Below are positions 4,745 through 48,683 of a stretch of DNA of 64,000 bases, piece by piece. A program made the position numbers and the translations under genes. The notes beneath the pieces were generated by a model. It worked only from the letters and a program-made list of their open reading frames with translations. It ran no database searches and was not told the origin of the DNA. The number at the start of each line of letters is the position of its first letter. The stretch's first letter is position 1. Source of the stretch: Clostridia bacterium (GTDB lineage: Bacteria; Bacillota; TC1; UBA5767); contig CP069393.1 of the NCBI GenBank assembly GCA_016887505.1, forward strand, positions 1,722,001 through 1,786,000, read 5' to 3'.

Positions 4745-4893
4745 TCCTAGTTTTTTGCAGGTGCTGACAACTTTCCTTTTGTTAACCAATTCCTTGGCAT
4801 TTTTTGAAAAGTCTCCGACTACAGCAAGCCGATAGGGCATCCGCCGAATATTCGATAACCCTACTCCTCGTCACCCACATGGGGTCTGGCGCT
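4745..4893 (-). ncRNA. glmS ribozyme-riboswitch (GlcN6P-activated self-cleaving RNA)
   Basis: On the minus strand the leader carries the conserved core in order: A-GCGCC cleavage site (A at 4893, G at 4892), a short P1 hairpin (CCC/GGG around 4886-4873), then the GACGAGG, GGGTTATCGA and TTCGGCGGATGCCC blocks, followed by distal helices and the glmS ribosome binding site. This order matches the known class. Known mechanism: glucosamine 6-phosphate acts as coenzyme for cleavage and the cut mRNA is degraded. The 3' limit is approximate. Confidence 0.93.
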
Positions 4894-5011
4894 ACCTTGC
4901 GGTTTCATTTATTCTACCTGCAATTTGACTTCATTCTACCACATTCCTGAACCATAAGAAATATGTGGTAAGGAATATTTAGCTAAAACTAACTAGCCTT
5001 TATCATTATAT

Positions 5012-11564: not shown

Positions 11565-12191
11565 TTACTTCAAAATGATATCTGTGGGATTCTCATGAAT
11601 AATCCTAGACAAACAGGCAATCCTATTTCCAAGATTAAATGCTGACCGAATCGCCTCTGGATCACGGTTCTCATCCCAGCGCTTATGGTCATTGGAAAAT
11701 ACATAGCTACCAGCATTCTCCCATTTTTCTCCACCCATTACCACCATACCTTGGCTAAGGAAAAAATTCAGAATACCGGATACGGTAATTTCCTGGCCAC
11801 CATTGCGTGATCCTCCAACAGCAATGGCTCCACCCACCTTTGAACCGAAGGGCCGGATATCTTGGTGTAGATCATGGGATCGGGAACGGAAGCGGTTGAA
11901 TAAGCAGGCAAGTTGCGCATTGTAATTCATATCATAAACCGGGGATCCTATGATAATCCCATCAGCCTCAAACATAGCCTGGATAATTTCTTGGGCATCG
12001 TCATCATAAACACAAGTATTCGTCCTCATACACTTCTCGCAATGAATACAAGGATGAATGGTCTTTCCGCGAAGTGAAATGTATTTCGTTTCTACTTCCC
12101 CAATATCGGCCGCACCCTCAAGCGCCTTCTTCACAGCGTAGTCGGTACCAGCTTTTCTAGGGCTACTGCTAATTCCTAAAATCTTTACCAT
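11565..12191 (-). CDS. Iron-sulfur flavoprotein (NADPH-dependent FMN reductase-like fold)
   Basis: 208 aa. Flavodoxin-like fold beginning MVKILGISSSPRK with the phosphate-binding SSSPRKAG loop. A compact cysteine cluster C48-x2-C51-x2-C54-x5-C60 matches the iron-sulfur flavoprotein (Isf) pattern for a [4Fe-4S] cluster next to FMN. The IIGSPVYDMNYN and GGSRNGGQE segments contact FMN. Family members pass electrons between ferredoxin and small oxidants in anaerobes; the partner here is unknown. It lies 67 bp after the permease gene nupQ but a terminator hairpin separates them, so it may be transcribed partly on its own. Confidence 0.87.
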   Translation of the reverse strand: MVKILGISSSPRKAGTDYAVKKALEGAADIGEVETKYISLRGKTIHPCIHCEKCMRTNTCVYDDDAQEIIQAMFEADGIIIGSPVYDMNYNAQLACLFNRFRSRSHDLHQDIRPFGSKVGGAIAVGGSRNGGQEITVSGILNFFLSQGMVVMGGEKWENAGSYVFSNDHKRWDENRDPEAIRSAFNLGNRIACLSRIIHENPTDIILK

Positions 12192-12215
12192 TTGGCTCCT
12201 CCTTCATATATAAAT

Positions 12216-12244
12216 AAAAAGGAGAGCAGTAAGCTCCCCTTTCA
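12216..12244 (-). terminator. Terminator after the nucleoside ABC transporter
   Basis: Minus-strand imperfect stem (12242-12233 with 12227-12218), 5-nt loop, then TTTTTATTTA. Lies between the nupQ-like and Isf genes. Confidence 0.75.
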
Positions 12245-12258
12245 TGTCAGTCAGTCAA

Positions 12259-13200
12259 CTACTCTTCATCAGGATAGTAAGGTACGCCCCAAGCTGCTGG
12301 AACAGCACCTGATCCCATTACTACCAACAATACCAAGGTCAGTATATATGGGAACATGATAGGAATCTGATAAGCCACTGGAATTCCAACTGTTTGAATT
12401 CTAAGCTGCAATCCTTGTGCTAAACCAAACATCAAAGCACCTAAACCAGCACCTAGCGGATGGAATCTACCGAAAATGATACAAGCAAAGGCAATAAAGC
12501 CACGACCTGCTGTCATGTTGTCGATAAAAGTATTCAATCCAGTAATGGAAAGTGCTGCACCGGAAAGTCCTCCCATGGCACCTGCAAAAAGCAATGCCAA
12601 ATAACGAACTTTAGCTACATTGACACCCATGGTTTCCGCTGCTTTAGGATACTCTCCTACTGCACGGATTTTTAAACCCCAGGTTGTCTTATAGAATACC
12701 CACCAGATAACCGGAACCGATAAAATGGCGATATAGACAAAAATAGTTTGTTGGAAAAATACTGGTCCGAAGAAAGGCAAATCCTTCAGAGCTTGCGGCC
12801 AACCAATTTCCGAAAATCCAGGAGAACGCAAGGCATTGGTGCTAGTCCCGAACAAGGTTCGAAGTAGGGAGCTGGCAAGACCCATACTGAAGGTATTGAT
12901 AGCAACCGCAACGACTACCTGGTTCATTACCAAGGTAATGGTAGTAAAGGCATGCAACAAGCCCAAAAGCATACATGAAATAACGGCAATTAGTACACCC
13001 ATCCATGGATTTCCTGTAAAATACGATCCAGCAAATGCTGCAAATGCACCAATCAGCATCATACCATCAATGCCAAGATTCAAAACACCAGTACGCTCGT
13101 TTACTACACCACCCATAGCAGCCAAAATCAAAGGAGTGGCAAAACGCAGACTGTTTCCTAGGAACTCAGCTGTAAAAATTACACTAGCTAACTCACCCAT
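12259..13200 (-). CDS. BMP-type nucleoside ABC transporter permease (NupQ/YufQ-like)
   Basis: 313 aa, hydrophobic, about eight to ten membrane helices of the BPD_transp_2 (branched-chain/ribose) permease family. Typical segments are the GAMGGLSGAALSI loop and an early RTGVLNLGIDGMMLIGAF motif that marks nucleoside permeases. It starts inside the end of the partner permease (8-bp overlap). With the neighbouring permease, the double ATPase and the BMP lipoprotein it forms a complete importer of the nucleoside class. The precise substrate (purine or pyrimidine nucleoside, or related base) is not visible from sequence. Confidence 0.9.
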   Translation of the reverse strand: MGELASVIFTAEFLGNSLRFATPLILAAMGGVVNERTGVLNLGIDGMMLIGAFAAFAGSYFTGNPWMGVLIAVISCMLLGLLHAFTTITLVMNQVVVAVAINTFSMGLASSLLRTLFGTSTNALRSPGFSEIGWPQALKDLPFFGPVFFQQTIFVYIAILSVPVIWWVFYKTTWGLKIRAVGEYPKAAETMGVNVAKVRYLALLFAGAMGGLSGAALSITGLNTFIDNMTAGRGFIAFACIIFGRFHPLGAGLGALMFGLAQGLQLRIQTVGIPVAYQIPIMFPYILTLVLLVVMGSGAVPAAWGVPYYPDEE

Positions 13201-14278
13201 TCTTTTTCACCAACCTTCTCTTATTAATGATTTTAATAATCCTCGGCATCTCGTTTGAAGCTACCACAAACAGGATTACCATAGCCTGTACCATGTAAAC
13301 AAAGGATACAGGAATACCCGTTGAAATCTGCATGGAGTTCGCTCCAGTCTTCAACGCCCCGAAGAAAAAGGCCGATAACAAGGTTCCAATAGGATTCAGG
13401 TTAGCCAATAGGGCTACTGCGATGGCATCGTAACCAATACCAACTGAGAAGTTTTCAATCAAACGACCGTGGACACCCATGATTTCAATAGCACCAGCAG
13501 TACCAGCGATGAAACCAGAGACAACCATAACTTTGGTCAAAAGATATTTCACATTTACACCTGCGTAATGTAGTGCATTGGGATTGTAACCAGCCGCTAC
13601 CATTTTAAAACCGGTAGTCGTTCTTTTAAAGAACCAAGCTAGGAAAACCGCCAACGCTATTACGAGTAGAACACCTACGTGCAAGTGGCTGCCAAACATT
13701 TTCGGCAAGGTCGCCGAAGGAACCATTGGCAAGGAACGTGGGAAAAATGAATCCGGCTCCTTTAATGGGCCTTGCACGATCATACTCAGAAAATACAGAG
13801 CAACATAGTTCATCAGCATGGTTACAACAATTTCATTGATTCCCTTATAGGCTTTCAAATATCCTGGTATAAAAGCGAACGCTGCTCCCAAGATACCGGC
13901 AAATGCAATAGCCAATCCAATGTGTAGTACCATTGGTAGCCCAGGAAAGTTAATTCCGATAATCGTAGCTCCAATTGCACCTAAGTACAATTGACCTTCC
14001 GCACCAACGTTAAAGATTTCAGATTTATAAGAAAATAGTACGGCCAAGCCGGTAAGAGCTAGTGGCACTGTCTTCACCAAAGAACCTGATAGGGAAGCCC
14101 AGCTCAAAATAGAGCCTTCCAGCAGGTAGTAATATGCTACAAATGGATTCACGCCCTGAGACCAAATGAATATGGCACCAACCAATAGGCCTAACAAAAT
14201 CCCGATGATTGGGGTTATGATACTACCCCACTGTATTCGAGAAGCGAATCCAAGAGATTTTTTATTATTGTCTCCCAT
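13193..14278 (-). CDS. BMP-type nucleoside ABC transporter permease (NupP/YufP-like)
   Basis: 361 aa from the ATG at 14278, which shares a base with the stop of the ATPase gene and follows GGGAGGAAG; the longer frame from 14299 is less likely. Multi-helix BPD_transp_2 permease. Characteristic are SYKSEIFNVGAEGQLYLGAIG in helices 2-3 (the nucleoside permease signature), a central SATLPKMFGSHL extracellular stretch and the VSGFIAGTAGAIEIMGVHG loop. It is the larger of the two permease subunits. Located in the cytoplasmic membrane. Confidence 0.9.
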   Translation of the reverse strand: MGDNNKKSLGFASRIQWGSIITPIIGILLGLLVGAIFIWSQGVNPFVAYYYLLEGSILSWASLSGSLVKTVPLALTGLAVLFSYKSEIFNVGAEGQLYLGAIGATIIGINFPGLPMVLHIGLAIAFAGILGAAFAFIPGYLKAYKGINEIVVTMLMNYVALYFLSMIVQGPLKEPDSFFPRSLPMVPSATLPKMFGSHLHVGVLLVIALAVFLAWFFKRTTTGFKMVAAGYNPNALHYAGVNVKYLLTKVMVVSGFIAGTAGAIEIMGVHGRLIENFSVGIGYDAIAVALLANLNPIGTLLSAFFFGALKTGANSMQISTGIPVSFVYMVQAMVILFVVASNEMPRIIKIINKRRLVKKNG

Positions 14279-15816
14279 TATTCTTCCTCCCTTGGACAAT
14301 CCATATCCGTTCGTCTAGTTCCAGCCATCATCAGACCAATTTCTTGAATGGTAACATCACCATTTTTCACTACGCCCATGAATTCGCCTTCATACATAAC
14401 AGCGATACGGTCTGCTACTTGCAGTATTTCTTCCAATTCAGTAGAAACAAGCAATACAGCAGCTCCACGGTCTCTTTGGTCAATTAACTTTTGGCGGACA
14501 AATTCAGTAGCTCCGATATCCAAGCCTCTAGAAGGTTGAACTGCGATTAGAATATCCGGTTCACGGCAGAGCTCTCTTGCTAAAATAATTTTCTGTTGAT
14601 TACCACCAGATAATTCTCTAGCAGGAACATTGGCGTCTGGTGCTTTAATATGATACTGATTAATCATATCAGCGCCATGACTATCCACTACTGCTTTGTT
14701 GAAAATACCGTTTTTGGAATATGGTTCCAAGTAATGATCTGTTAAAAGCAAATTGTCTTTGATGGCCATTTGTAGTACAAGGCCGGTATGTTGTCTGTCT
14801 TGAGGAATATGAGATACTCCTTGCTCATATACATCACGTACATCAAGTTTGTTCTTTTCAACGCCTTTAATGACTACTGATCCCTCTTGGAAAGTAATCA
14901 TACCAGTTAAGGCTTCGGCTAACTCATTCTGTCCATTGCCGTCAACACCAGCAATACCCAAAATTTCTCCACCATGAACTTTCATGGACAAATTGTTCAC
15001 ACGAGTGATGCCTTCTTTGTCAACCACTTTCAAGTTCTTGGCTTCCAAAAATACATCCTTCATATTTAATTCTTTTTCTTCAAATTCGAACAATACATCC
15101 CGACCAACCATGAGATTGGCAAGTTCATTTGGATTTGTTTCCGTGGTGCGAACACAACCAGCGACTTTCCCATCTCTTAGAACTGTCACGCAATTCGACA
15201 ATTCCATAACTTCTTCAAGTTTATGGGTAATAATCAGTACTGATTTTCCTTCTTTGGTTAATTTCTTAACAACTTTAAAAAGTTCTTCTACTTCTTGGGG
15301 TGTAAGTACAGCGGTTGCCTCATCTAAGATGAGAATCTCTGCCTCACGATATAATACCTTAAGAATTTCCACACGTTGTTGTAAACCAACGGGCAAGTTT
15401 TTCACTTTTTCTTTAGGATCAATGCCGAAATTATATCTGTCTGATAGTTCTTGAATTTTCTTTTCTGCTGCATCCAAATTCAAAAACGGCTCTCTGCCTG
15501 ACTTCAGACCCAGTATGATGTTCTCTGCCACAGTAAGCTCAGGAACAAGCATGAAATGCTGGTGCACCATGCCAATACCAAGTTTAATGGCATCATCACT
15601 GCTGTTGATCTCTACTTCTTTTCCTTTAACATAGATCTTACCGCCGTCTTGACGGTACAGACCATAGAGACAGTTCATCAAGGTGGATTTTCCTGCGCCG
15701 TTTTCTCCTAAAAGCGCTAGAACTTCACCCTTCTCCAATTTCAGGTCTACGTCCTGATTCGCAATTACTTTTGGAAAAATCTTGGTGATCTTTTCCAATT
15801 CCAATACAGTTGCCAA
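14278..15816 (-). CDS. Nucleoside ABC transporter ATP-binding protein, two fused NBDs (NupO/YufO-like)
   Basis: 512 aa. The first ATPase domain has Walker A GENGAGKST (about residues 36-44) and Walker B LILDEATAVL. The second has the degenerate Walker A GVDGNGQNE and IAVQPSRGLD in place of a standard Walker B, plus the LSGGNQQK signature; this asymmetry is normal for sugar/nucleoside importers. The start codon is TTG at 15816, 9 nt behind GGAGG. It energises import by the two downstream permeases. A terminator-like hairpin upstream (15890-15922) should make it less abundant than the binding protein. Confidence 0.92.
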   Translation of the reverse strand: MATVLELEKITKIFPKVIANQDVDLKLEKGEVLALLGENGAGKSTLMNCLYGLYRQDGGKIYVKGKEVEINSSDDAIKLGIGMVHQHFMLVPELTVAENIILGLKSGREPFLNLDAAEKKIQELSDRYNFGIDPKEKVKNLPVGLQQRVEILKVLYREAEILILDEATAVLTPQEVEELFKVVKKLTKEGKSVLIITHKLEEVMELSNCVTVLRDGKVAGCVRTTETNPNELANLMVGRDVLFEFEEKELNMKDVFLEAKNLKVVDKEGITRVNNLSMKVHGGEILGIAGVDGNGQNELAEALTGMITFQEGSVVIKGVEKNKLDVRDVYEQGVSHIPQDRQHTGLVLQMAIKDNLLLTDHYLEPYSKNGIFNKAVVDSHGADMINQYHIKAPDANVPARELSGGNQQKIILARELCREPDILIAVQPSRGLDIGATEFVRQKLIDQRDRGAAVLLVSTELEEILQVADRIAVMYEGEFMGVVKNGDVTIQEIGLMMAGTRRTDMDCPREEE

Positions 15817-15887
15817 ATCTACTTTCCTCCTCTAAAAGCCTAAAGGATAGGGCAAAATAGTTGCCGAATCCGAGTAATTGATAGAGG

Positions 15888-15922
15888 GGAAAAAGGCTTC
15901 TCAAACCCCTTTAAGAAGCCTT
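15888..15922 (-). terminator. Intra-operon attenuating terminator after the BMP lipoprotein gene
   Basis: Minus-strand 9-bp stem 15922-15914 with 15901-15893, 12-nt loop, then TTTTT. It sits between the binding-protein gene and the ATPase gene and probably gives the usual excess of binding protein over transporter. Confidence 0.72.
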
Positions 15923-15951
15923 ACTCCCTTTTTCTTAGTGTTTAGTAACTA

Positions 15952-16992
15952 TTATTTACCAATCATTTCTGCAACGTTTTCGATGTTGTATTCACCGGAT
16001 GCAAATTTTTCCCATTCAGCAATAGTTTTAGCTTTTGCTTCTTCTGGTACGTTTGCAGCCCAAGTACCTAAGGGTTGAGCGCCTTCAGCGATACCATAAA
16101 CGTTTGCACTACCTTCTTCGCCAGCTTGCAATTTGTTAACCATGTCGCCAATGATGTAGGCAACGTCTTGTACGCCAGAAGTAGCAACTAAGTCAGGTGA
16201 AAGTACATTCAGGTCTCCAGACCAACCAATGAACCATACGCCTTCAGTTTCTTCACATGCTTGAATAGCACCAGCGTCACATGCATCACCAATACCGATG
16301 ATTACGTCTACGCCTTGAGAAATCATAGCTTTTGCAGCTTCTTTACCAGCAGCGATGTCTACCCATGAACCGGTATAAGCAACGCTTACTTCAACATCAG
16401 GATACATAGAAGCCATAGTAGCTTGAATGGTGTCAACCTCGTCCAAAATGGTCGGGATTTCCATAGCGCCTACGAAACCAATGTGATTGGATTCAGTAAG
16501 TTCTGCAGACAATACAGCCATAACATAACCTAGCTCGCCAGTTCTAAATACACCTGACATCAAGTTAGGTTGTTCTCCACCAGCAAATCCGCCAACTTGA
16601 GCAAATTTCACTTCAGGGAACTCAGCAGCTACAGTAGTTAAAGCATCTCCATACTCGAAACCATGACCAATGATTACATCGTAACCTTTTCTTGCATAGT
16701 CTCTAAGAATGTTTACTTGGTCATCTTGTTTCACGTTCTCAGTGTAGCTTACTTCGTAGCCATCACGCTCTTCAATAAGAAGCAGACCTTCGTAAGCTTG
16801 GCTGTTCCAACCACCGTCGTTAATTGGACCGGAAGTCAGTAGGGCAGCTTTGGGTGCTTCATCCTCAGCAGCGGGTTCTTCAGCAGCAGGTTCTTCAGCG
16901 GCTGGTTCTTCCTCTGCAGGTGCACAACCTGCCACCATAGCGATTGCAAAAATCAAAACCAAACCTAGTGCTAGCAATTTTTTCAGACTCAT
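15952..16992 (-). CDS. BMP family nucleoside-binding lipoprotein (NupN/PnrA-like)
   Basis: 346 aa. A lipoprotein signal peptide ends in the lipobox VAGC, with lipidated Cys23. A short acidic linker follows made of repeated EEPAA units (about residues 27-45). The rest is a periplasmic-binding fold of the BMP/Med/PnrA family: TSGPINDGGWN (residues ~54-64), IIGHGFEYGDALT and a C-terminal YGIAEGAQPLGTW. Known relatives bind purine nucleosides. The ribosome binding site GGGGAGG is strong. It is the second gene of a transcript starting at the zinc dehydrogenase, separated from it by a small GTGGGC/GCCCAC hairpin (17027-17042). Confidence 0.93.
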   Translation of the reverse strand: MSLKKLLALGLVLIFAIAMVAGCAPAEEEPAAEEPAAEEPAAEDEAPKAALLTSGPINDGGWNSQAYEGLLLIEERDGYEVSYTENVKQDDQVNILRDYARKGYDVIIGHGFEYGDALTTVAAEFPEVKFAQVGGFAGGEQPNLMSGVFRTGELGYVMAVLSAELTESNHIGFVGAMEIPTILDEVDTIQATMASMYPDVEVSVAYTGSWVDIAAGKEAAKAMISQGVDVIIGIGDACDAGAIQACEETEGVWFIGWSGDLNVLSPDLVATSGVQDVAYIIGDMVNKLQAGEEGSANVYGIAEGAQPLGTWAANVPEEAKAKTIAEWEKFASGEYNIENVAEMIGK

Positions 16993-17086
16993 AAAACTTT
17001 ACCTCCCCGTAAATTAAGTAGTCTTTGTGGGCTTTAGCCCACGGTATAACACATTCGACGCGTATTTCCGTTCTCCTTTAAAGTGA

Positions 17087-18079
17087 TTAGAATTTAAATA
17101 AAATCTTCATCGCTTTCTGATTAGAAAGGTCTTCAAAGGCCTCTTCCCACTGATCTAAAGTGCGATCATCAGAAAGAAGTGGTTTGACATCGATTAAACC
17201 CTCAGATTCCAAGGTTAGTGATCGTTCCCAAGTTGGATAATTATGGCAGAACGTTCCTTGGATTTTTAATTCCTTGAATAGTAATGTATCATAATCAATG
17301 GTTACGGGCTTACCGGCAATTCCTACCTGCAGGAAATCGCCCCCTTTTCTCACTGATTTTAGAGCTGTATTAATTCCACCGGCAGCGCCTGAACAATCGG
17401 CTACCAAATCATACTTCTCGCTAGTTTCTAGTTCGTCTGGTGAAAGAACTGAAAGTCCATAGACTTTCGCTACTTCAAGACGCTCTTTATCTGCCGGAGT
17501 TCCGACAATATCCACCCTGCAGCCATAGGCTTTTAGAGTTGCACCAACTAAAATTCCAATTGGTCCAGGTCCTACAACCAGGCATTTAGTGCCTGCTTGA
17601 GGGTTAACCAATTCAACTGCATGTACAGCACATGCTAGTGGTTCGGTCATTGCACCTTCTCTGAGACTTACATTTTCAGGAAGTACATGAATGTATTCTG
17701 GGGACACTAGTAGATATTCAGCAAAAGCACCTGGCTTTTCGAATCCCACAGCAGTCCTTTGGTCACATAATTGATATTTTCCTTGTCGGCAATTAATGCA
17801 ACTTCCGCATACTTCGTATGTATGTTCTACAGTTACTTTTTGTCCTACTTCAAATCCTTCAACCCCTTCTCCTAGTTCAGAGATGGTTCCGCTGAATTCA
17901 TGTCCAAGTAATGCCGGTTCACCTAACGGCATCGCGCCATGATACATGTGTACGTCCGTACCACAGATGCCTGAATAGGCTACTTTAATTTTTACCTTGC
18001 CAGCTTGTATGGCAGGTTCCTCTATGTCCCTAAGCTCAAACGCTTTGGGCTCATCGCTCATTCTATATAACGCTTTCAT
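17087..18079 (-). CDS. Zinc-dependent MDR-family dehydrogenase (sorbitol/threonine dehydrogenase-like)
   Basis: 330 aa. Catalytic zinc ligands Cys39 (GICGTD), His60-Glu61 (GHEFSG) and Glu146 (TEPLAC). The structural zinc site is Cys91, Cys94, Cys97 and Cys105. The Rossmann nucleotide site is VVGPGPIGILVG (GxGxxG). It oxidises a secondary alcohol or polyol with NAD(P); the substrate cannot be read from sequence. It heads the nucleoside transporter transcript, with its own promoter at 18151-18123, so a pentose/ribitol-like product of nucleoside breakdown is one plausible substrate (inference). GAGGTG ribosome binding site. Confidence 0.88.
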   Translation of the reverse strand: MKALYRMSDEPKAFELRDIEEPAIQAGKVKIKVAYSGICGTDVHMYHGAMPLGEPALLGHEFSGTISELGEGVEGFEVGQKVTVEHTYEVCGSCINCRQGKYQLCDQRTAVGFEKPGAFAEYLLVSPEYIHVLPENVSLREGAMTEPLACAVHAVELVNPQAGTKCLVVGPGPIGILVGATLKAYGCRVDIVGTPADKERLEVAKVYGLSVLSPDELETSEKYDLVADCSGAAGGINTALKSVRKGGDFLQVGIAGKPVTIDYDTLLFKELKIQGTFCHNYPTWERSLTLESEGLIDVKPLLSDDRTLDQWEEAFEDLSNQKAMKILFKF

Positions 18080-18122
18080 AACTGCACCTCACTCATTTTA
18101 AGTTGTATATACGACTGAACCT

Positions 18123-18151
18123 ATTTTACTACGTCGATACATATTGTGCAA
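18123..18151 (-). promoter_or_regulatory. Promoter of dehydrogenase-nupNOPQ transcript
   Basis: -35 TTGCAC at 18151-18146, 17-bp spacer, -10 TAAAAT at 18128-18123. The remaining part of the 243-bp gap 18080-18322 shows no gene and no convincing terminator for the amidohydrolase. Confidence 0.65.
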
Positions 18152-18322
18152 GTATCTTGCGTGGCAAGCGTAATGCTGTCGTACTCATCCTTAAGCCGAA
18201 AAAGTAGCGTCCTGAAGATGGTACCACATTGGTATAAATCTCAAACACGCTTAAATTCCGCTCTTCATAGTAGCACTTCAATAAACTTTTTACAATAGGC
18301 TATGCGGTAGTACACATTTATA

Positions 18323-19738
18323 CTATTGAAAGGGTCCTACTTTGATTTTTTGATTCCACTGTGTATTGCCCAATCCTACACGTTCTCTGAGCTTGTAGGC
18401 TACCTCTTGAAGTCTTACAAGGGCTGCTTCCTCATCCACTGTTTGAATCTTTCCTTCTTTAAGGATAACCTTGCCAGCCACTACTGTACTATCTACATTT
18501 TGTTGAGTACTGTGGTAGACCAAGGCAGCCACGGGATCAGCAACCGGCACACAACGCGAGGTCATCGGATTCATCAGCCAGAAGTCTGCTACCTTGCCTT
18601 CTTCTATAGCTCCCAGGTCATCTTGACGTCCAATAGCCTTCGCACCACCTAGTGAGGCCATTTCCAATACCTCCGAAGCACTCATTACTTCCGGGTCTCT
18701 TAATACGCACTTGTGAATTAAAGCAGAAGTTTTGATAACTTCGATCATATCCTGCGTATCGTTTGAGGCACTCCCGTCTGTAGCCAGCGAAATGGTAAGG
18801 CCTTCTTTTTGCATTCTAGGAATCGGTGCAACACCAGAAGCCAATATCATGTTGCTAACTGGGTTATGCGATACCTTTATATCGTGTTTCTTGAAAATAT
18901 CAAAGTCTTCGTCAGACATATCCACACAGTGTACAGCGATGAAATCCGGACCTAGCACCCCTGTTTTTTCTAGAAAGGGTATCGTGTTTAGCCCGTATAC
19001 GTCTTGAGCAAACTTGTTGTCGTCTTCTGTTTCAAGCACATGCATCGTGATGGGTATTTTGTATTTATCTGCTACTGTCCGACACTGCCTGTATCCTTCT
19101 TCCGAAAGATCCCAGATAATGCCAGGAGCTAGTGCCAAACTGATTGTGTTATGGTTTGCGTACTTTTTCTGAAGTCTTTCCACATCATCGAAAAAGTCCT
19201 GTTCCGTTTCCACGTGTGGACAGGCTGCGCCTTCCGGCATTTTACCGACTTTTGTGTGAGCTCTACCTAAAATACCACGAATCCCAACATCCTCAAAAGC
19301 CTGGGTTACCGCGTCATCCATACCCCGCTCCTTGGCATGGGCATAGTGATAATCCAACACGGTAGTGGAACCGGAGCGTAGGTTTTCGATTGCACCTACT
19401 ACTGCTGCCGCATAGACTTCCTCATACCCTGTTTCATGTAAAGCGAAGCGTACCGAGCTATCCAACCAATCAAACAAGCTCTTATCACGTCCCAACCCCT
19501 TCATTGCACCTTGAAATAGGTGAGAGTGGGTATTCACAAATCCTGGGAAGACCGTCTTATTAAGACCGTTTAACACTTCGTCTGCTTGGTATTTGGACTC
19601 CAGCAGTTTGCTGTCTCCTACTTCCAATATTCGGCCCTTTTCAACTGCAATCGCAGCATCATAGAGGACGCGACGTTCTTTATCCAATGTAACTACTGTC
19701 GTATTTACGACTAGTAGGTCAATCTTTTTCTTTTCCAT
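18323..19738 (-). CDS. Amidohydrolase (8-oxoguanine/guanine deaminase or AtzB/TrzN-like subgroup)
   Basis: 471 aa, TIM-barrel metallo-amidohydrolase. Metal ligands: His71 and His73 (NTHSH), His233 (MHVLE), His270 (AVHCVD) and Asp321 (ATDGSASND), with Glu236 as likely proton shuttle; the single-metal pattern belongs to the aminohydrolase subgroup acting on aromatic N-heterocycles. The GAMKGLGRDKSLFDWL segment is typical of 8-oxoguanine deaminase and triazine hydrolases. It is expected to deaminate a purine, pterin or similar ring. It follows the second RibD-like gene by 19 bp and is probably co-transcribed with it. SAH/5-methylthioadenosine deaminase is a less likely alternative. Confidence 0.85.
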   Translation of the reverse strand: MEKKKIDLLVVNTTVVTLDKERRVLYDAAIAVEKGRILEVGDSKLLESKYQADEVLNGLNKTVFPGFVNTHSHLFQGAMKGLGRDKSLFDWLDSSVRFALHETGYEEVYAAAVVGAIENLRSGSTTVLDYHYAHAKERGMDDAVTQAFEDVGIRGILGRAHTKVGKMPEGAACPHVETEQDFFDDVERLQKKYANHNTISLALAPGIIWDLSEEGYRQCRTVADKYKIPITMHVLETEDDNKFAQDVYGLNTIPFLEKTGVLGPDFIAVHCVDMSDEDFDIFKKHDIKVSHNPVSNMILASGVAPIPRMQKEGLTISLATDGSASNDTQDMIEVIKTSALIHKCVLRDPEVMSASEVLEMASLGGAKAIGRQDDLGAIEEGKVADFWLMNPMTSRCVPVADPVAALVYHSTQQNVDSTVVAGKVILKEGKIQTVDEEAALVRLQEVAYKLRERVGLGNTQWNQKIKVGPFQ

Positions 19739-19757
19739 CTACTGTCTCCCTACATAA

Positions 19758-20771
19758 CTAATACTTGTATTTGCTTAAATCCTCTTGGCTAGTTACACCG
19801 TAAAAAATCTTCTGTCTCGTAAATATAAAGCTAGATTTATGGGTACCAACCGTCAGCAATTTTGCATGCGGATGTCGATTGTGCTCAAAGCCCCGGCTGT
19901 AACCAGGCGTAATACCTCCGCCTGCATACACCATGGAATAATTGATAAAATATTCATCTAACATATCGTTTTCCATCAAGTGCCAATTGTAGCTTGGTGA
20001 TTCAATTAAAAGTCTTTCTTGTCCTAGTTTTCGTAACAAATATAGCAATACTCTTGAGTCAGGACGATTGTCTTCTCCTGTAATAAATACGGGTATGCCT
20101 ATATTTGCTTTCATTAGTTCTTCAATTTTTTTAATCTCTTGTTCGTCGATCTCATTTACAGATTTATAAGGACCAACCAAATAGTGGTTTCTTTCAAAAT
20201 GAGCATCTACGTACTCTCCACCCTCGGGTGATGTAGCAATGGCTACTGGAAAATTTTCTTCTTCGTCTACATCGAAAATAATATGTTCAAAGGGTATGTC
20301 CTGGGCGTCGAACGATACGACTATGTTCATAGGGCATGCTGATTTACCTAGTTGTTCTACTCTTTGTTTGGCCATCTCGATATCAAAAATATGGCTAGTA
20401 TTGTGTGCTTCGCTTTGTAAGGTCTTTGCACCCAAAATAATTCCATCAGAGTAGACACGCATCGCATTGAGCATCCAAAAATCTGCCAAGGCACCGTCTG
20501 GGTCAAAGTAATTTTCTTTTGCAATGAGTGGGCCAGCCGACATATTTGTAAAAGCCATCTTTCCATCTGCCGAAAGAACGACAGAGCAGAAGGTATACGG
20601 CCTGTCTTCTGGTGCTGGTGGAAATAGCATTTCTCCATAAACTTCTTGGATCTTGTCTATGGTCTTATCTGGGCTAATAGCCCTTATATCGCCAAGGACT
20701 GCTTCGTCTCTGAAACAATTCTCAATTTTTACTTGCTTTGTTGGAAACTCCATCATAAAAAGTTTTCCCAT
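19758..20771 (-). CDS. RibD_C/dihydrofolate reductase-like protein, copy B
   Basis: 337 aa. An N-terminal extension of about 60 residues (DKIQEVYGEMLFPPAPEDRPYTF) is followed by a RibD C-terminal/DHFR-fold reductase domain with SVVLSADGKMA, a GPLIA motif, RVYSDGIILGAKTL and a C-terminal LLIESPSYNWHL segment. In the family this fold binds NADPH and reduces a ribosylaminopyrimidine or pterin-like substrate. No deaminase domain is fused, so it is not a classical RibD. The start at 20771 follows GAGGAGG. A paralogue lies upstream and an amidohydrolase follows. No riboflavin genes are nearby. The substrate is unknown. Confidence 0.72.
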   Translation of the reverse strand: MGKLFMMEFPTKQVKIENCFRDEAVLGDIRAISPDKTIDKIQEVYGEMLFPPAPEDRPYTFCSVVLSADGKMAFTNMSAGPLIAKENYFDPDGALADFWMLNAMRVYSDGIILGAKTLQSEAHNTSHIFDIEMAKQRVEQLGKSACPMNIVVSFDAQDIPFEHIIFDVDEEENFPVAIATSPEGGEYVDAHFERNHYLVGPYKSVNEIDEQEIKKIEELMKANIGIPVFITGEDNRPDSRVLLYLLRKLGQERLLIESPSYNWHLMENDMLDEYFINYSMVYAGGGITPGYSRGFEHNRHPHAKLLTVGTHKSSFIFTRQKIFYGVTSQEDLSKYKY

Positions 20772-20818
20772 ATTTCATCCTCCTCTACAATAAACAGTGC
20801 ACTAGTTCAGGCATCCTG

Positions 20819-20866
20819 TTAATAGATCTTTAAGAGTTTGATGTAATCTTTTTCTTTTTTTCTCAT
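20819..20866 (-). CDS. Possible 15-codon peptide ORF upstream of RibD-like copy B
   Basis: A minus-strand ATG at 20866 stands 5 nt behind GGAGG and opens a 15-codon frame encoding a Lys-rich peptide (MRKKEKDYIKLLKIY) with stop at 20821-20819, 47 bp before the start of copy B. It could be a translated leader or chance. Just upstream, ATGCAT repeats (two copies spaced by 4 bp) lie within the larger inverted repeat 20882-20910. Confidence 0.35.
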   Translation of the reverse strand: MRKKEKDYIKLLKIY

Positions 20867-20917
20867 GGCTCCTCCAAATTAAGTATGCTACATGCATCAT
20901 TATGCATACTGTATTTG

Positions 20918-20953
20918 TCCATAAAATAGGGTATCTTGCAAGATACCCTATTT
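20918..20953 (-). terminator. 30-bp palindrome acting as terminator of RibD-like copy A
   Basis: Perfect palindrome 20924-20938 / 20939-20953; the minus strand continues into ATTTTAT. It lies 46 bp after the copy A stop and separates the two paralogues into different transcripts. The absence of a proper loop means the fold must open a few central pairs. Confidence 0.65.
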
Positions 20954-20999
20954 ACTCATACAGTATAACTCATTCCCCATAAATTTGTAAAGCAGAAAG

Positions 21000-22004
21000 C
21001 TACATGGTGCGTTCGTCACGTACCGGTTCATCTTCTACCAAACCATAATATAATTTTTGTCTAGTAAAAATGAAATTATTCTTATGCATTGCTGTAGTTA
21101 AAATTTGGGAATGTGGATGCGCATTCACCGAGAAGGCATGAAAAGCACCTGGTGCTTTATGGCCTCCCACAAATACAGAAGAATAGTTAATAAACATCTC
21201 ATCCATAGCGCCAATACTCATCAAATGCCACATATAGGAAGGTGATTCAATCACGAGTTTTTCTAGACCAATCTTTTTAAGGATATACATTAATACAGCA
21301 CTATCAGGGTTTGATCCTTTGCCGGTTAGGAAAATGGGTATGGCTTTTTCGTCCGATGCCATTTTCTTTTTAATTTCAGCAATATCCACTTCTTCGGTGT
21401 TTGCATACGGTCCAAAGATTATATGCTTGTTTTTGAAATTAGTCTTTAGATAGTCACCACCATCTGGTGAAGTTGCAATGGCAGCTGCTAATCCTTCTGT
21501 GGAAAATACGCCATGCTCCAAGGGGATATCTGTGCCATCAAAGGAAACAACGATATTCATTGGTGCAACAGTCTTTTTGCCTAGCACTTCAAAGCGAGCA
21601 TCTACCAAGTCTTGGTCAAAGCAGTTTGAAATCATCAAGGGTTCAGCTGCTAAGGTTCCAGCACCAATTATTACACCATCTGCATAGGCTCTGAGTACAT
21701 TTAAAATCCAGAAATCTCCAAGTCCACCATCTAGGTCCAACAGATTTTTAGCTGCAATTAAGGGACCTTGTGGGTCATCTTCATAGGCCATTTTTCCATC
21801 CATAGACAAAACGATGGAGCCGAAGGTATAGGGTCTGTTTTCCGGGGATGCCGGAAAGAACAGTTCGTCATATACCGACTTAATTTTTTCTGGTGTTGCT
21901 TTTTCATTGGAGCTTTCCTTTAGTTCTGCAAGAATCTCTTCCGCTTTGTTCAATACGGTGAGTTTCATCGCTTCAACAGGAAAGTTCATCGTTACCATAT
22001 CCAT
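21000..22004 (-). CDS. RibD_C/dihydrofolate reductase-like protein, copy A
   Basis: 334 aa, a clear paralogue of the next gene: the same N-terminal extension (PEKIKSVYDELFFPASPENRPYTF), the SIVLSMDGKMAY strand, GPLIA, ADGVIIGAGTL and LVIESPSYMWHL, in the same order and spacing. The reductase fold is expected to use NADPH. The two copies differ in the middle (for instance EPLMISNCFDQD here against EAHNTSHIFD there), so they may act on different substrates or form a heterodimer (inference). GGGAGGATAATT ribosome binding site. It has terminators on both sides. Function unknown. Confidence 0.72.
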   Translation of the reverse strand: MDMVTMNFPVEAMKLTVLNKAEEILAELKESSNEKATPEKIKSVYDELFFPASPENRPYTFGSIVLSMDGKMAYEDDPQGPLIAAKNLLDLDGGLGDFWILNVLRAYADGVIIGAGTLAAEPLMISNCFDQDLVDARFEVLGKKTVAPMNIVVSFDGTDIPLEHGVFSTEGLAAAIATSPDGGDYLKTNFKNKHIIFGPYANTEEVDIAEIKKKMASDEKAIPIFLTGKGSNPDSAVLMYILKKIGLEKLVIESPSYMWHLMSIGAMDEMFINYSSVFVGGHKAPGAFHAFSVNAHPHSQILTTAMHKNNFIFTRQKLYYGLVEDEPVRDERTM

Positions 22005-22035
22005 AATTATCCTCCCAAATAAAAATATCGCCGCT

Positions 22036-22075
22036 TATAAAAAAATACTTCTACGTCATTATAACCTAGAAGTAT
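22036..22075 (-). terminator. Terminator after the corrinoid protein gene
   Basis: Minus-strand 9-bp stem 22075-22067 with 22054-22046, then seven T. The loop contains TATAAT, which could also be a -10 element for RibD-like copy A (weak -35 TTTTCA 17 bp upstream). Confidence 0.8.
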
Positions 22076-22114
22076 CGTGTTGAAAACAATAATATGTTAT
22101 ACCGCCTTACAAAT

Positions 22115-22744
22115 CTACGCCAATAATCCTGCACACAACCTAGCAGCACTAGCGGCATCTTTGGAAAATCCATCCGCCCCAATCTCATCTGCATATTCCT
22201 GGCTGAGTGGAGCGCCTCCTACAATAACGTGGACCGAGTCACGTAGTCCCTCGGAATCTAGTTTTTTCACTACTTCGCTCATGACCTTCATGGTGGTGGT
22301 TACCAAGGCACTCATGCCAATAATTTGTGCACCGTTTTTCGCTTCGTTGACAAAGCTTTCAGGGGATACGTCCACCCCTAAATCCAATACTTCAAAACCA
22401 CTTGCTTCTAGAAACATCGCTACCAGATTTTTCCCGATGTCATGTAGGTCTCCTTTGACTGTACCTAGAACTATTTTCCCTTTGGATTCAATTTTTTCTC
22501 CTTCCAATAAGGGTTTTAGTCTATCTACCGCCATATTCATGGCATTAGCACACATTAGAACTTCCGGAACATACATTTCACCTGAACCAAAACGGTCTCC
22601 CACAATTGCCATTGCTTCCATCATGCCGTCTGCAATGATTGCCACCGGGGATGCACCCTGTTCTAGCAAATCTTCCACTTGATCCAATAATTCTTCTTCG
22701 TCTCCCTCAATCAGAGCTTCCTGCAATTCTTCATAATCAAGCAT
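22115..22744 (-). CDS. Corrinoid (B12)-binding protein of the methyltransferase type
   Basis: 209 aa. An N-terminal helical B12-binding cap (about residues 1-85) is followed by a Rossmann-like cobalamin domain with the DxHxxG signature D99-L-H101-D-I-G104 (lower axial His101), then GMSALVTTTM and VIVGGAPLS. In known systems such proteins (MtbC, MttC, MtaC class) shuttle a methyl group between a substrate-specific methyltransferase and tetrahydrofolate or CoM. Neither a substrate methyltransferase nor a corrinoid reactivator is adjacent. The start at 22744 follows AGGAGGAAG; the frame to 22765 is rejected. Flanked by terminators, so probably monocistronic. Confidence 0.9.
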   Translation of the reverse strand: MLDYEELQEALIEGDEEELLDQVEDLLEQGASPVAIIADGMMEAMAIVGDRFGSGEMYVPEVLMCANAMNMAVDRLKPLLEGEKIESKGKIVLGTVKGDLHDIGKNLVAMFLEASGFEVLDLGVDVSPESFVNEAKNGAQIIGMSALVTTTMKVMSEVVKKLDSEGLRDSVHVIVGGAPLSQEYADEIGADGFSKDAASAARLCAGLLA

Positions 22745-22842
22745 ATTCTTCCTCCTATACAACAACTAGGCCACCCGCTAGGGGCAGAGCATCCATTGTC
22801 ATGGACATATTTTATTTTACCTTAATCCCATGATTTGTGGAA

Positions 22843-22866
22843 GAAAAAAAGGGCAATCGCCCTTTA
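22843..22866 (-). terminator. Terminator overlapping the end of the ECF-like gene
   Basis: AAAGGGC/GCCCTTT stem with a 4-nt loop followed by seven T; the stem begins inside the stop codon of the membrane protein gene at 22864. Confidence 0.82.
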
Positions 22867-23625
22867 TCGGTCGTGCAATTCTCTTTTTTTGGCTAGTTTA
22901 CCGTGATCCTTCCAAAAATATTCCTTCCCTAGAACGAATCCAAAGTTGGGTAAAAGAATTTTAAAAAGCAACACTGGTAGCAAGGCTACAAAGGAAAAGA
23001 TATAGGCAATGCTGAGAAAGGTATAGGTGTTCATGTTTTCCCACATAAAGGCGGGCAGTTCATAGTATCCAACTGAAAGGGTGGCCGCTATAAAAACACC
23101 CACGTGCATTCCAGCCAGCACCACAATCAAGAAACCCATTACCTGCACAAAGTAATTGTCTGATGTTGTGAACCCAGTTCCGTAGACTCCCGCTACTATC
23201 GTATAGGCAAGCACTGACAAGGTAAAAATCAATGCTAGTGAACCCGTATTCAAATCAGCGGGGACCTTGTAATACCAAAAGCCTATCACAGCCAGAGCCA
23301 ATAGCAGGGATAGAATCCAATTTCTTTTCTTTATCCAGGCGCAACTCAAAGCAATTAATGGAGCCATTACAAAGGTGTAAGGACCGGCAAAGGCGGTTAT
23401 CGGACTAAGCATTTGTCCGAAATAAGCCATGGCCAAGGCACCTACAGCACCAAGGATTGGTCCATACAAGATTCCCATCAGGGGTACTAAAATCAACCCT
23501 AATCCAATTCTTTTCGCTTCACCGAATACAGGAAAAACTTGTATCCCCAGATCTTGACGAGCCATAAGCGTGCCCAGTCCAATTAATAATAAATATGCAA
23601 TAATATTGATTGTTTTCTTTTTCAT
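22864..23625 (-). CDS. Probable ECF transporter S-component-like membrane protein
   Basis: 253 aa with about seven hydrophobic helices and a basic C-terminus. The early part (GLGLILVPLMGILYGPILGAVGALAMAYFG) resembles the helix pair seen in S-components of energy-coupling-factor vitamin transporters, but the protein is longer than most. The EcfA and EcfT subunits are not nearby, which is normal for group II systems. Its 5' end is 63 bp after leuA without a clear terminator, so it may be read through from leuA. The ligand is unknown. An unrelated small membrane protein family is an alternative. Confidence 0.55.
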   Translation of the reverse strand: MKKKTINIIAYLLLIGLGTLMARQDLGIQVFPVFGEAKRIGLGLILVPLMGILYGPILGAVGALAMAYFGQMLSPITAFAGPYTFVMAPLIALSCAWIKKRNWILSLLLALAVIGFWYYKVPADLNTGSLALIFTLSVLAYTIVAGVYGTGFTTSDNYFVQVMGFLIVVLAGMHVGVFIAATLSVGYYELPAFMWENMNTYTFLSIAYIFSFVALLPVLLFKILLPNFGFVLGKEYFWKDHGKLAKKRELHDR

Positions 23626-25407: not shown

Positions 25408-25720
25408 ATAAAAAGCCCTCTCGTCTCATCTGAGACGAAAGGGCTACTTCCGCGGTACCACTCAAGTTTAGCCATATGGCTACTCTTACGATATGCAATA
25501 AAAACAAAAACCCTCGTCTAAGAGACAAAGGCTACCACTCTAGTGCATATCTCCGATGTAACGGTCGAACCCGTCCTAGCTTACTATTCTTTCAGCCGGA
25601 AACTCCGAGGCCAGTTCAACATAAGTCCACCTAACGCCTTCCACCAACCGACGTCTCTCTATAGGCTTCATTATACCTACTATTCCTCTTCTTAGTCTTA
25701 CTCTTATCTAAATTGTATAT
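25408..25720 (-). promoter_or_regulatory. T-box leader of leuA (probable Leu specifier)
   Basis: Minus-strand leader with an AGTAGG motif and GAGAGA, the GGTTGGTGGAAGGC distal loop motif, an antiterminator T-box TGGTACCGCG at 25460-25451, and a terminator (25445-25408: a long AGCCC...GGGCT stem then TTTTT). The specifier loop reads GAACTGGCC; aligned by the purine after the triplet, the codon is CTG (Leu) at 25614-25612. An overlapping register TGG (Trp) cannot be fully excluded. Uncharged tRNA-Leu would favour read-through into leuA. Confidence 0.9.
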
Positions 25721-36954: not shown

Positions 36955-37227
36955 TAAAAAAAATCCCGCCACTGGGCTTATGCCAGGGGCGAGATATTAT
37001 TCACGCGGTACCACCCTGCTTTCATCACTCACAACGTCAATCAACGTCTAAGCTATAACGGGCCCTCCCGTTCGACCTTACTTAATTGGGGCCGACAGTT
37101 CGAAAGTGATATCTATCTTGGGAATTCGTACCGGCTTACACCAAAGCGCCGGCTCTCTGAAACTCGTTCTGCAAGTAGACTTGTCTTTCTCATTACCTTT
37201 AGATGAATCGCAATACTATTACTGATT
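36955..37227 (-). promoter_or_regulatory. T-box leader of the ilvE-ilvDBNB-leuCDB-cimA operon (Ile specifier)
   Basis: Minus-strand leader with AGAGAGCCGG and the GGTGTAAGCCGG loop, the specifier loop reading AGATATCAC with codon ATC (Ile) at 37110-37108, an antiterminator T-box TGGTACCGCG at 37013-37004, and a terminator (about 36993-36955: CTCGCC...GGCGGG stem then at least eight T). Uncharged tRNA-Ile would allow transcription of all nine genes. Confidence 0.93.
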
Positions 37228-47498: not shown

Positions 47499-48683
47499 TT
47501 ATCGTTTCCACTCCTTCCCCAAATGTTGCATCAGTAGCAAATATCCTTTAGCACCACGATATAGATTTTCCACATCAATGTATTCATCCACCGTATGTGC
47601 CTGAACTTCATTTCCAGGACCATATCCCAGAGTAGGAATATTTTTAGCCCCAGCACTCGCACTACCATTGGTACAAAAATCATAGGTCCCTAGTCCCTCG
47701 AGTAATCCGTCTTTCGATAACAAACTGCAGGCCGCCTCCTTCCAAGGCTCTTCCTTGTCGTAGTTCCAGGCAGGTGCAAATCGCACCCCACCCAATTCTC
47801 GTCCGGTCCACGTCAAAACGTCGTTGGGCCTAATGGATAATTCGTATTTCACCTCATCCTTATGGTGTGAAAGAAGTTCTTCTATTTGTGCTAGTACCTG
47901 TTCTTGGGTCTCACCTGGCAAGAGTCTTCTGTCAAAGGTCACCTCACAAAGCTCTGGCACCACAGACGCTCCTGGATAGGGGCTAGAGATAATATCTGTT
48001 AGTTCTAGTATCGCCTCTCCTAACACGGGATGACGATTGGGTACATAGGCCTCCATACTCTTTAGGAGTAACATCATTTTCTTAACTGCGTTGATTCCAA
48101 TTTGAGGACTAGCGCTGTGTGCCCGTTTGCCCATGGTTTTTAGTGAAATCTCCGCCCTGCCTCTTTGACCAGTATTGACGCGAAGTCCTGTCGATTCCCC
48201 AATAACCACTAGGTCAGGATGAATTGTTGCCAATACACCCATAAGTGAAATGCCCTCGGCTACTTCCTCATCCACAGTACCACTTACCGTAACGCTACCC
48301 CGCAGTTTTTCTCTGTCAATGCAGCCAGCCGCATACACCATGGCGCCAAGGGCACCTTTCATGTCTGAAGTTCCCCGTCCATATAGACGCCCGTTTCGAA
48401 TCTCTCCTGCAAAAGGGTCTAGTTGCCAGTCTGATGGATTGCCGATCTCTACTGTATCTAAATGCCCATCAAAAAGAAGTGAGGGTCCAGCATGGTTACC
48501 ATGAATTGTTCCCATTAGGTTTCCCATTTCATCAATTTTCACTTCATCAAAGCCCTGTTTTTTCATATACTTTTCAAGAAAGTCTACCAGTTTTTCTTCA
48601 TTCCCGGTATAGCTGGGAATGCGAATCATCCCCTGAACCAATTCCAGTAATTCTGCCTTATCTACAGCATACACCTTATTCAT
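47499..48683 (-). CDS. M20 family metallohydrolase (ArgE/DapE/YgeY-like)
   Basis: 394 aa. Di-zinc amidohydrolase/peptidase: metal and active-site residues in LFDGHLDTVEIG, the GRGTSDMKGALGAM motif, the catalytic TVDEEVAEG and a C-terminal NEVQAHTVDEYIDV histidine. A lid/dimerisation domain lies at about residues 180-290. Likely removes an acyl group or splits a small peptide-like amide. Closest in feel to YgeY-type hydrolases, but the substrate cannot be read. AGGAGGAAAA ribosome binding site. Confidence 0.87.
   Translation of the reverse strand: MNKVYAVDKAELLELVQGMIRIPSYTGNEEKLVDFLEKYMKKQGFDEVKIDEMGNLMGTIHGNHAGPSLLFDGHLDTVEIGNPSDWQLDPFAGEIRNGRLYGRGTSDMKGALGAMVYAAGCIDREKLRGSVTVSGTVDEEVAEGISLMGVLATIHPDLVVIGESTGLRVNTGQRGRAEISLKTMGKRAHSASPQIGINAVKKMMLLLKSMEAYVPNRHPVLGEAILELTDIISSPYPGASVVPELCEVTFDRRLLPGETQEQVLAQIEELLSHHKDEVKYELSIRPNDVLTWTGRELGGVRFAPAWNYDKEEPWKEAACSLLSKDGLLEGLGTYDFCTNGSASAGAKNIPTLGYGPGNEVQAHTVDEYIDVENLYRGAKGYLLLMQHLGKEWKR

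Follow-up and report, generated by a model that had tools for sequence, protein, structure and literature searches.

Pterins (folates, biopterin and neopterin) are widespread in cells. Pterin deaminases are members of the amidohydrolase superfamily, and the chemistry of acetoin dehydrogenase is a model for side-chain cleavage by complexes that use lipoyl groups and thiamine pyrophosphate (TPP). In the open-access literature, we found no description of an anaerobic route of pterin breakdown or of the gene set described below. Here, we analysed a stretch of 64,000 nucleotides (the window; positions 1,722,001-1,786,000) of the single-contig genome, 2,563,013 bases, of a Clostridia bacterium. Eleven genes at 11565-23625 of the window, all intact open reading frames (ORFs) on the minus strand, encode a BMP/PnrA-type ATP-binding cassette (ABC) importer, a flavodoxin-fold protein, a zinc dehydrogenase, an amidohydrolase, two RibD-like reductases, a corrinoid protein and a membrane protein. 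All the genes named in the original prediction, which was made from the letters of the window, were present as described; the flavodoxin-fold gene at 11565-12191, which it had not named, is part of the set. We slightly favour the reading that these genes form a catabolic module with which an anaerobe takes up and degrades a pterin-type heterocycle (a 2-amino-4-oxo-pteridine).

The RibD-like genes and their neighbours were compared across 40 loci. Because the window's own RibD-like proteins were the queries of the homology searches, these loci may over-represent the subfamily linked to the amidohydrolase. Among them are close relatives (three C. difficile records and the genomes of genus g3), a contig of 3 kb, a locus in decay and a gene that contains an in-frame stop, and the stretch read at each locus was 3 to 41 kb; the short G003 fragments C13 and C145 were excluded. 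A simple script called the ORFs, with the RibD-like genes of L050, L052 and L055 found by tblastn, and the identity and coverage thresholds for counting neighbours were set by hand. The labels GntR, LacI, FGGY kinase, aldolase and E3 were given by eye or by BLAST family. In 22 of the 40 loci, an amidohydrolase gene was the immediate same-strand neighbour of the RibD-like gene, with a gap of no more than 139 bp (ends extrapolated from tblastn), although two of these neighbours (G001c and an Oscillibacter) share just 37% identity with the amidohydrolases used as queries. At a 23rd locus (G006a, L122), a cytosine-deaminase-family gene stood there instead. The 22 pairs span uncultured Clostridia, Halanaerobiales, gut Oscillospiraceae and C. 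difficile. The RibD-like gene comes first in the window (19 bp before the amidohydrolase start), L043, L044, L054 and genus g3, and the order is reversed in the C. difficile records, Clostridium sp., L055, G158 and Halanaerobiales, indicating that the pairing has outlasted rearrangement.

Other partners recurred at the same loci. Methenyltetrahydromethanopterin cyclohydrolase (Mch) was present at 14 of the 40, the BMP substrate-binding protein at 14, the flavoprotein at 13, the E1 component of lipoyl/TPP complexes at 12, the BMP ATPase at 11, a short-chain dehydrogenase/reductase (SDR) at 10 and a molybdenum (Mo) hydroxylase at 9. Rarer were an aldolase (6), a kinase (5), aldehyde oxidoreductases (AFOR; 4), a lipoate ligase (4), a corrinoid protein (4), an S component of energy-coupling factor (ECF) transporters (3), the zinc dehydrogenase (3), FolB (2, of which the full-strength FolB of G003b may be a housekeeping gene) and a pterin-binding protein (1). 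At 13 comparison loci, which were hand-picked rather than random and contain Mch (5) or amidohydrolase (4) genes by choice, the substrate-binding protein, the BMP ATPase, the corrinoid protein, the Mo-hydroxylase and FolB were each found once, and the flavoprotein, E1, SDR, aldolase, kinase, AFOR, lipoate ligase, ECF-S, pterin-binding and RibD-like genes were all absent. The fullest sets lie on one strand in three g3 genomes (L071/L079, L074/L080 and L076/L081), in the order RibD-like, amidohydrolase, four BMP genes, lipoate-ligase-like, GntR-like, SDR, Mch, E1-alpha, E1-beta, E2, a second Mch and flavoprotein. In the C. difficile records, the order is iron-sulfur subunit, Mo-hydroxylase, SDR, Mch, E1-alpha, E1-beta, E2, amidohydrolase, RibD-like and E3-like. 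At L119, a UbiD gene adjoins the RibD-like gene, with AFOR genes nearby. A second type of RibD-like locus (L064, L068, L070, L073, L077) carries a kinase and an aldolase (both labelled by eye) and an SDR without such an amidohydrolase, and perhaps serves a polyol side chain. At G005 C1:1199958-1201894 (L072), the RibD-like and Mch genes lie side by side, both broken into pieces.

The amidohydrolase, the RibD-like genes, the importer and the flavoprotein are thus grouped beyond chance, by conserved adjacency and by their company in other genomes. The original prediction had seen a link by neighbourhood only, which proved too weak a statement, and the breakdown of an N-heterocycle that it had suggested is better supported than it claimed. 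Its proposed check, that amidohydrolase, RibD-like and corrinoid genes stay adjacent elsewhere, held for the first two. Independent distribution, which it had named as grounds for refutation, was not seen for the amidohydrolase, the RibD-like genes or the importer; the corrinoid protein and the zinc dehydrogenase came close to it. An accessory region of unrelated genes without a common function would be consistent with the stem-loops at 12243-12217 (11 pairs, between a permease gene and the flavoprotein gene) and 22865-22848 (7 pairs, after the membrane-protein gene), both on the minus strand, which divide the region, and with corrinoid and ECF-S-like genes whose place next to a RibD-like gene is confined to the window's own family. 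The internal terminators of the original prediction are there as long stem-loops, but terminator-like sites showed no clear excess over shuffled sequence (15 vs 12.2 +/- 3.6). Against this explanation stand the 22 adjacent pairs, the partners shared by distant genomes and the joint decay in G005; we regard it as very improbable, and for the amidohydrolase, the RibD-like genes, the importer and the flavoprotein it is already contradicted.

The family itself is narrow. Of 398 genomes sampled within the phylum, 31 matched the 35-member RibD-like profile. The match was strong (at least 185 bits) in 13; in the remaining 18 it reached 41 bits or less, under the limit of 45 bits, and these genomes were taken not to have the family. 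Scanning one genome per species yielded 19 RibD-like loci, part of them already known from relatives. New ones included those in Clostridioides difficile CD10-165, CD160 and HC132 (which we take to be cryptic clades), two Pseudoflavonifractor, an Oscillibacter, Clostridium sp. 1001271st1, two metagenome-assembled Halanaerobiales genomes and Anaeromonas.

We then consider the RibD-like proteins, which are 48% identical to each other in the window. Copy 1 (21000-22004) lies above the RibD_C Pfam cut-off of 24.1 (27.1), while copy 2 (19758-20771) lies below it (21.2) and was placed by the profile alignment of the family (A2; 35 members, L050 left out) and its S-x-D-G-K motif. The NCBIfam riboflavin-reductase cut-offs were not reached (best 31.5 vs 150.15 and 31.2 vs 184). 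In the tree, the two copies fall in different clades, copy 1 with L043, L044, L045 and L046, and copy 2 with L043 and L054 of the same genus. An AlphaFold2 model of copy 1, built from a 35-row alignment, had a predicted local distance difference test (pLDDT) score of 93.6 and matched the Rib7/RibD reductase fold (Foldseek E 4.2e-16), with the archaeal Rib7 5xux as top structural match (Z 23.9, 230 residues, root-mean-square deviation 2.2). Rv2671, the RibD homologue of M. tuberculosis (4xt4, with a dihydropteridine ring), was tied with it at Z 23.5, so the fold test does not discriminate between the two, and dihydrofolate reductases came next at Z 12-14.5. The S-x-D-G-K/R motif, which presumably corresponds to D33 mutated in Rib7 entries, was found in 35/35 aligned members. 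As the model stands, the fold appears compatible with a diaminopyrimidine and a pterin substrate alike, and the genomic company of the protein favours a pterin.

Given that Mch recurred at the RibD-like loci, Mch genes offer an independent probe. Mch (PF02289) was found in 25/398 genomes, namely in 10 of the 13 with the RibD-like family vs 15 of the 385 without (Fisher 3e-11); by genus, the counts were 6/8 vs 11/258 (Fisher 7e-7), both tests ignoring phylogeny. In other Bacillota, clusters without a RibD-like gene (L103, L104, L105 and L107) combine a LacI-like regulator, Mch, flavoprotein, FolB and BMP genes. A related amidohydrolase is present in L103, L105 and L107 and absent from 20 kb of L104, and a short Mch paralogue is present in L103 and L104. 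As a second FolB lies elsewhere in each of these four genomes, the one in the cluster is an extra copy. FolB also stands beside the amidohydrolase in L054 and L133, and L101 brings together flavoprotein, BMP genes, Mch, another amidohydrolase and AFOR. In genus g50, sister amidohydrolases (100/100 support) occur in L100, with RibD-like, Mch and E1/E2 genes, and in L103, with Mch, FolB and BMP genes, which ties the two cluster types together. At L106, the BMP genes are on the opposite strand from Mch, and four of the highest-scoring Mch loci (L111-L114) had no amidohydrolase, flavoprotein, BMP substrate-binding protein or RibD-like gene. Taken together, the pterin-handling partners (Mch, the extra FolB, a pterin-binding methyltransferase-like protein and the Rv2671-like RibD fold) point to pterins rather than purines among the options, purine, pterin or methylated base, that the original prediction had left side by side.

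The rest of the window organism's genome holds further modules of this kind. Its 2.56 Mb gave matches to 3 RibD-like, 3 Mch, 15 BMP lipoprotein and 17 amidohydrolase genes (one with an in-frame stop), together with 3 proteins with FolB domains and 3 pterin-binding proteins; the numbers of lipoprotein and amidohydrolase matches suggest a heterocycle specialist. Two of the 3 RibD-like genes lie within 5 kb of an amidohydrolase gene (p 0.014), the only gene type for which such closeness was significant; the double-FolB genes were not significantly close to amidohydrolase genes, and gene positions by themselves are no proof of clustering in this genome. The 570-578 kb locus (GntR-like, SDR, Mch, E1-alpha, E1-beta, E2, Mch) would be the side-chain module missing from the window. 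A pterin-binding protein shares a 20-kb stretch with the FolB at 567,765, which may be the housekeeping copy, and at 312 kb an amidohydrolase stands with a double FolB. The 2,066-2,078 kb locus (L096) carries a pterin-binding protein, Mch, a flavin adenine dinucleotide oxidoreductase, two Amidohydro_2 proteins, an amidohydrolase, EcfT, two EcfA, an M20-family hydrolase and an ECF S component (PF07155, the riboflavin ECF family), and may serve to take up and cleave folate. We discarded the idea that the window as a whole is specific to folate, since the amidohydrolases from loci of the ECF/pterin-binding kind form a clade separate from the window's.

Locus L096 would also fit vitamin salvage, in which scavenged oxidised or one-carbon-substituted pterins or folates are repaired by reduction or ring opening and returned to the cofactor pool. 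The RibD homologue of M. tuberculosis can replace dihydrofolate reductase, with low activity and when highly over-expressed (PMC10812664). However, a deaminase destroys the pterin, the lipoyl/TPP complexes and the lipoate-ligase-like, AFOR, UbiD and kinase/aldolase neighbours fit carbon breakdown, and the presence of the family is patchy (13/398 genomes). We therefore consider salvage improbable.

The amidohydrolase (18323-19738; Amidohydro_1, 206.6 bits) is the proposed ring 2-amino deaminase. It was below the cut-off for all 25 best NCBIfam matches; 8-oxoguanine deaminase (PRK08203) was one of three near-equal best, with 303.4 bits vs an equivalog cut-off of 532, so the likeness claimed in the original prediction is real while membership of that family is not supported. 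In the tree, 13 of 17 RibD-linked amidohydrolases, together with that of L103, form one supported group apart from the other amidohydrolases of the window's genome; three lie outside and one (L054) just outside. The closest solved structures are 3hpa and 7ww2, the latter named 8-oxoguanine deaminase, which brings in the main rival: breakdown or salvage of purines. Here the BMP system would import purine nucleosides, a Mo-hydroxylase would make the 8-oxo base and the amidohydrolase would deaminate it, after which an Mch-like enzyme would open the imidazolium ring to a formamidopyrimidine, to be reduced by the RibD-like protein as by Rib7 in riboflavin synthesis. The Rib7 match of the RibD-like model is in keeping with this, as are an XdhA-like subunit in the C. 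difficile locus L053 (638.9 bits vs a cut-off of 780) and a Xan_ur_permease in the C. difficile locus L057. Elsewhere in the window, at 47499-48683 on the minus strand, there is a hydrolase of the YgeY family (402.6 bits vs an NCBIfam cut-off of 321), presumably linked to purine metabolism; the name of its NCBIfam model refers to selenium. The label "nucleoside importer" was not accepted as substrate evidence, the NCBIfam match of the substrate-binding protein being far under its cut-off. Purines leave unexplained the extra FolB, the pterin-binding methyltransferase-like protein and the ECF/pterin-binding/Mch locus, and the Mo-hydroxylase is present at only 9/40 loci, the window's not among them. 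We judge a purine pathway unlikely, if still the most serious competitor.

Several of these observations nevertheless weigh against pterin breakdown, namely the two closest solved amidohydrolases, the permease of L057 and the YgeY-family hydrolase, and others join them. Structure 2paj, which we take to be isoxanthopterin deaminase, is only a distant match of the amidohydrolase (117.9 bits), and at 18/40 loci the RibD-like gene lacks such an amidohydrolase as its neighbour. No Mch was found in 3 of the 13 RibD-like genomes (G009, G383, G389), and neither an amidohydrolase nor a flavoprotein gene lies in the part read of the Mch loci L102 and L106. In the window's own genome, 3/15 BMP and 1/3 Mch genes are within 5 kb of amidohydrolase genes (p 0.07 and 0.18, neither significant). 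The known substrate of Mch carries N10, which simple pterins do not, so it is not evident how the enzyme would act on a pterin that lacks this atom. Finally, we infer the pterin substrate from gene company and fold.

We propose the following scheme for pterin breakdown, in which substrate, order of steps, cofactor and catabolic direction are drawn from the identities and company of the genes. The BMP system would import a pterin-type compound, and the zinc dehydrogenase in the window, or the SDR at other loci, would oxidise a side-chain alcohol. By analogy with acetoin dehydrogenase, a lipoyl/TPP complex might then split the acyloin or diketone so formed into an acyl-CoA (acetyl-CoA in the case of biopterin) and an aldehyde or acid of the pterin. 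At L119, AFOR and UbiD would oxidise and decarboxylate a 6-formyl or 6-carboxyl group. The amidohydrolase would take off the ring 2-amino group (C2) as ammonia, and the RibD-like pair would act as NAD(P)H reductases of the pterin or lumazine ring or of a ring-opened diaminopyrimidine, with the flavodoxin-fold iron-sulfur protein giving or accepting electrons. Hydrolytic ring opening would follow, perhaps by Mch; this is the weakest link, given the N10 of the known Mch substrate. For the window organism, the side-chain and one-carbon steps could be supplied by modules elsewhere in its genome (SDR/Mch/lipoyl-TPP, amidohydrolase/double FolB and ECF/pterin-binding/Mch).

The same side-chain enzymes allow for breakdown of flavins or lumazines, whereby opening of the lumazine ring would free a diacetyl- or acetoin-like C4 unit for conversion by SDR and lipoyl/TPP complex to acetyl-CoA. 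The RibD-type reductase fold agrees with it, meso-2,3-butanediol dehydrogenase is among the five best SDR matches (below cut-off), the E1/E2 genes are of pyruvate dehydrogenase type (all below cut-off except one E1-beta subfamily) and the S component of L096 belongs to PF07155. However, flavins have no 2-amino group to offer the amidohydrolase and, to our knowledge, FolB and Mch are not flavin enzymes, which leaves this route highly improbable.

The remaining genes of the region were placed as follows, with a Pfam scan of ten of the window proteins. The importer genes stand together as two permeases of the BPD_transp_2 family (12259-13200, 131.8 bits; and 13193-14299, an ORF placed by its BLAST family, shared with the first), an ATPase (14278-15816; ABC_tran in two stretches) and a substrate-binding lipoprotein (15952-16992; Bmp PF02608, 172.4 bits). 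The flavodoxin-fold protein (FMN_red, 91.8 bits), a probable electron carrier, has the cysteine cluster C-x2-C-x2-C-x5-C; C-x2-C-x2-C-x4-7-C, which we take to be the motif of archaeal iron-sulfur flavoproteins, was present in 16/16 copies inspected. The zinc alcohol dehydrogenase (17087-18079; ADH_N and ADH_zinc_N) resembles L-threonine 3-dehydrogenase below the cut-off (215.8 vs 380 bits). Its three copies at RibD-like loci, and one more distant copy in G002b (by BLAST family), are all in the window's family.

Two genes are uncertain members of the module. The corrinoid protein (22115-22765) has B12-binding (PF02310, 90.9 bits) and B12-binding_2 (PF02607, 85.8 bits) domains and the D-x-H-x-x-G motif (DLHDIG), and lies below TIGR02370 (196.2 vs 215.3) and the MtgC/MtbC cut-offs (203.9 vs 370; 173.7 vs 350). 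No partner methyltransferase was among the ten window proteins scanned with Pfam. At L044, a pterin-binding methyltransferase-like gene lies two genes downstream of the corrinoid relative, between it and the RibD-like genes, and is closest to methyltetrahydrofolate:corrinoid methyltransferase (223.6 bits vs a cut-off of 259); this is the one hint of the demethylation that had been offered as an alternative to breakdown. In the window's own genome (L136:10092-12239, ~328-330 kb), a corrinoid protein is found with an MtmB-family methyltransferase (PF05369, 221 bits), a single 465-residue ORF without an in-frame stop, and both genes adjoin BMP importer genes and a LacI-like regulator. The membrane protein (22864-23625), a possible ECF S component, had no Pfam match, and the folate-family ECF S-component TIGR04518 was below cut-off (22 vs 60 bits). 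It shares 22% identity with an L096 protein, truncated where that stretch ends, that passes PF07155 (41.7 vs 26.7). Its model had a pLDDT of 65.4, and the 17 best Foldseek hits, none with an E value below 0.046, were to S components of ECF transporters or to ECF transporters. The corrinoid and membrane proteins may serve a methylated pterin or folate, as hinted by the L044 gene, or be unrelated.

Promoter-like sites lie 5' of each RibD-like gene (22086-22058 and 20991-20962) and are weak clues, such sites being rarer in the window than in shuffles (23 vs 37.3). A riboswitch scan of the window gave T-box leaders at 25428-25702 and 36982-37202 and a glmS element at 4761-4904, all on the minus strand, and seven partner loci had no Rfam match at gathering score, so there is no ligand clue. 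Branched-chain amino acid genes occupy 23.7-36.9 kb of the window, two acetolactate-synthase-like ORFs (by eye) among them.

On a wider scale, we tentatively suggest, at somewhat less than an even chance, an anaerobic pathway of pterin and folate breakdown built from recruited biosynthetic and one-carbon enzymes (the RibD fold, FolB, archaeal-type Mch and a pterin-binding methyltransferase) with interchangeable side-chain modules. In this view, the window's bacterium, with its several loci, would specialise in these compounds, and a biopterin-like variant would be found in gut Oscillospiraceae and some lineages of C. difficile. With a defined gene set to assay, the fate of pterins in sediments and gut would become testable, the RibD-like family and the bacterial Mch copies now named as one-carbon enzymes would gain functions, and there would be a caution that a FolB or Mch annotation in Clostridia need not signal folate synthesis or use of methanopterin.

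Compared with known systems, the importer resembles BMP/PnrA-type importers in its grouping of substrate-binding protein, ATPase and two permeases, and differs in that the best NCBIfam match of its substrate-binding protein, a putative B6 transporter, reaches only 94.8 of 400 bits. The amidohydrolase shares with the 8-oxoguanine/pterin deaminase group the NTHSH, SNM-LASG-AP and DG-ASN segments and aligns with 3hpa and 7ww2 over most of its length, but scores under the 8-oxoguanine deaminase cut-off. Among the Mch copies, those of L053 and L104 pass TIGR03120, and the R-x-x-E motif, which has a catalytic role, is conserved in all 15 full-length copies aligned, from the clusters and elsewhere. 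In contrast, the short paralogues of L103 and L104 lack this motif, the cluster copies have neighbours unlike those of L111-L114, and their mean identity to four higher-scoring copies, the only ORFs obtained from eight comparison Mch loci, is 21-37%, a rough figure as one reference (canon_L091) is in the wrong frame. The RibD-like proteins share fold and motif with Rib7 and Rv2671, whereas they are longer (~310-340 residues vs 216-246 in the single-domain entries) and are accompanied by a deaminase and other partners.

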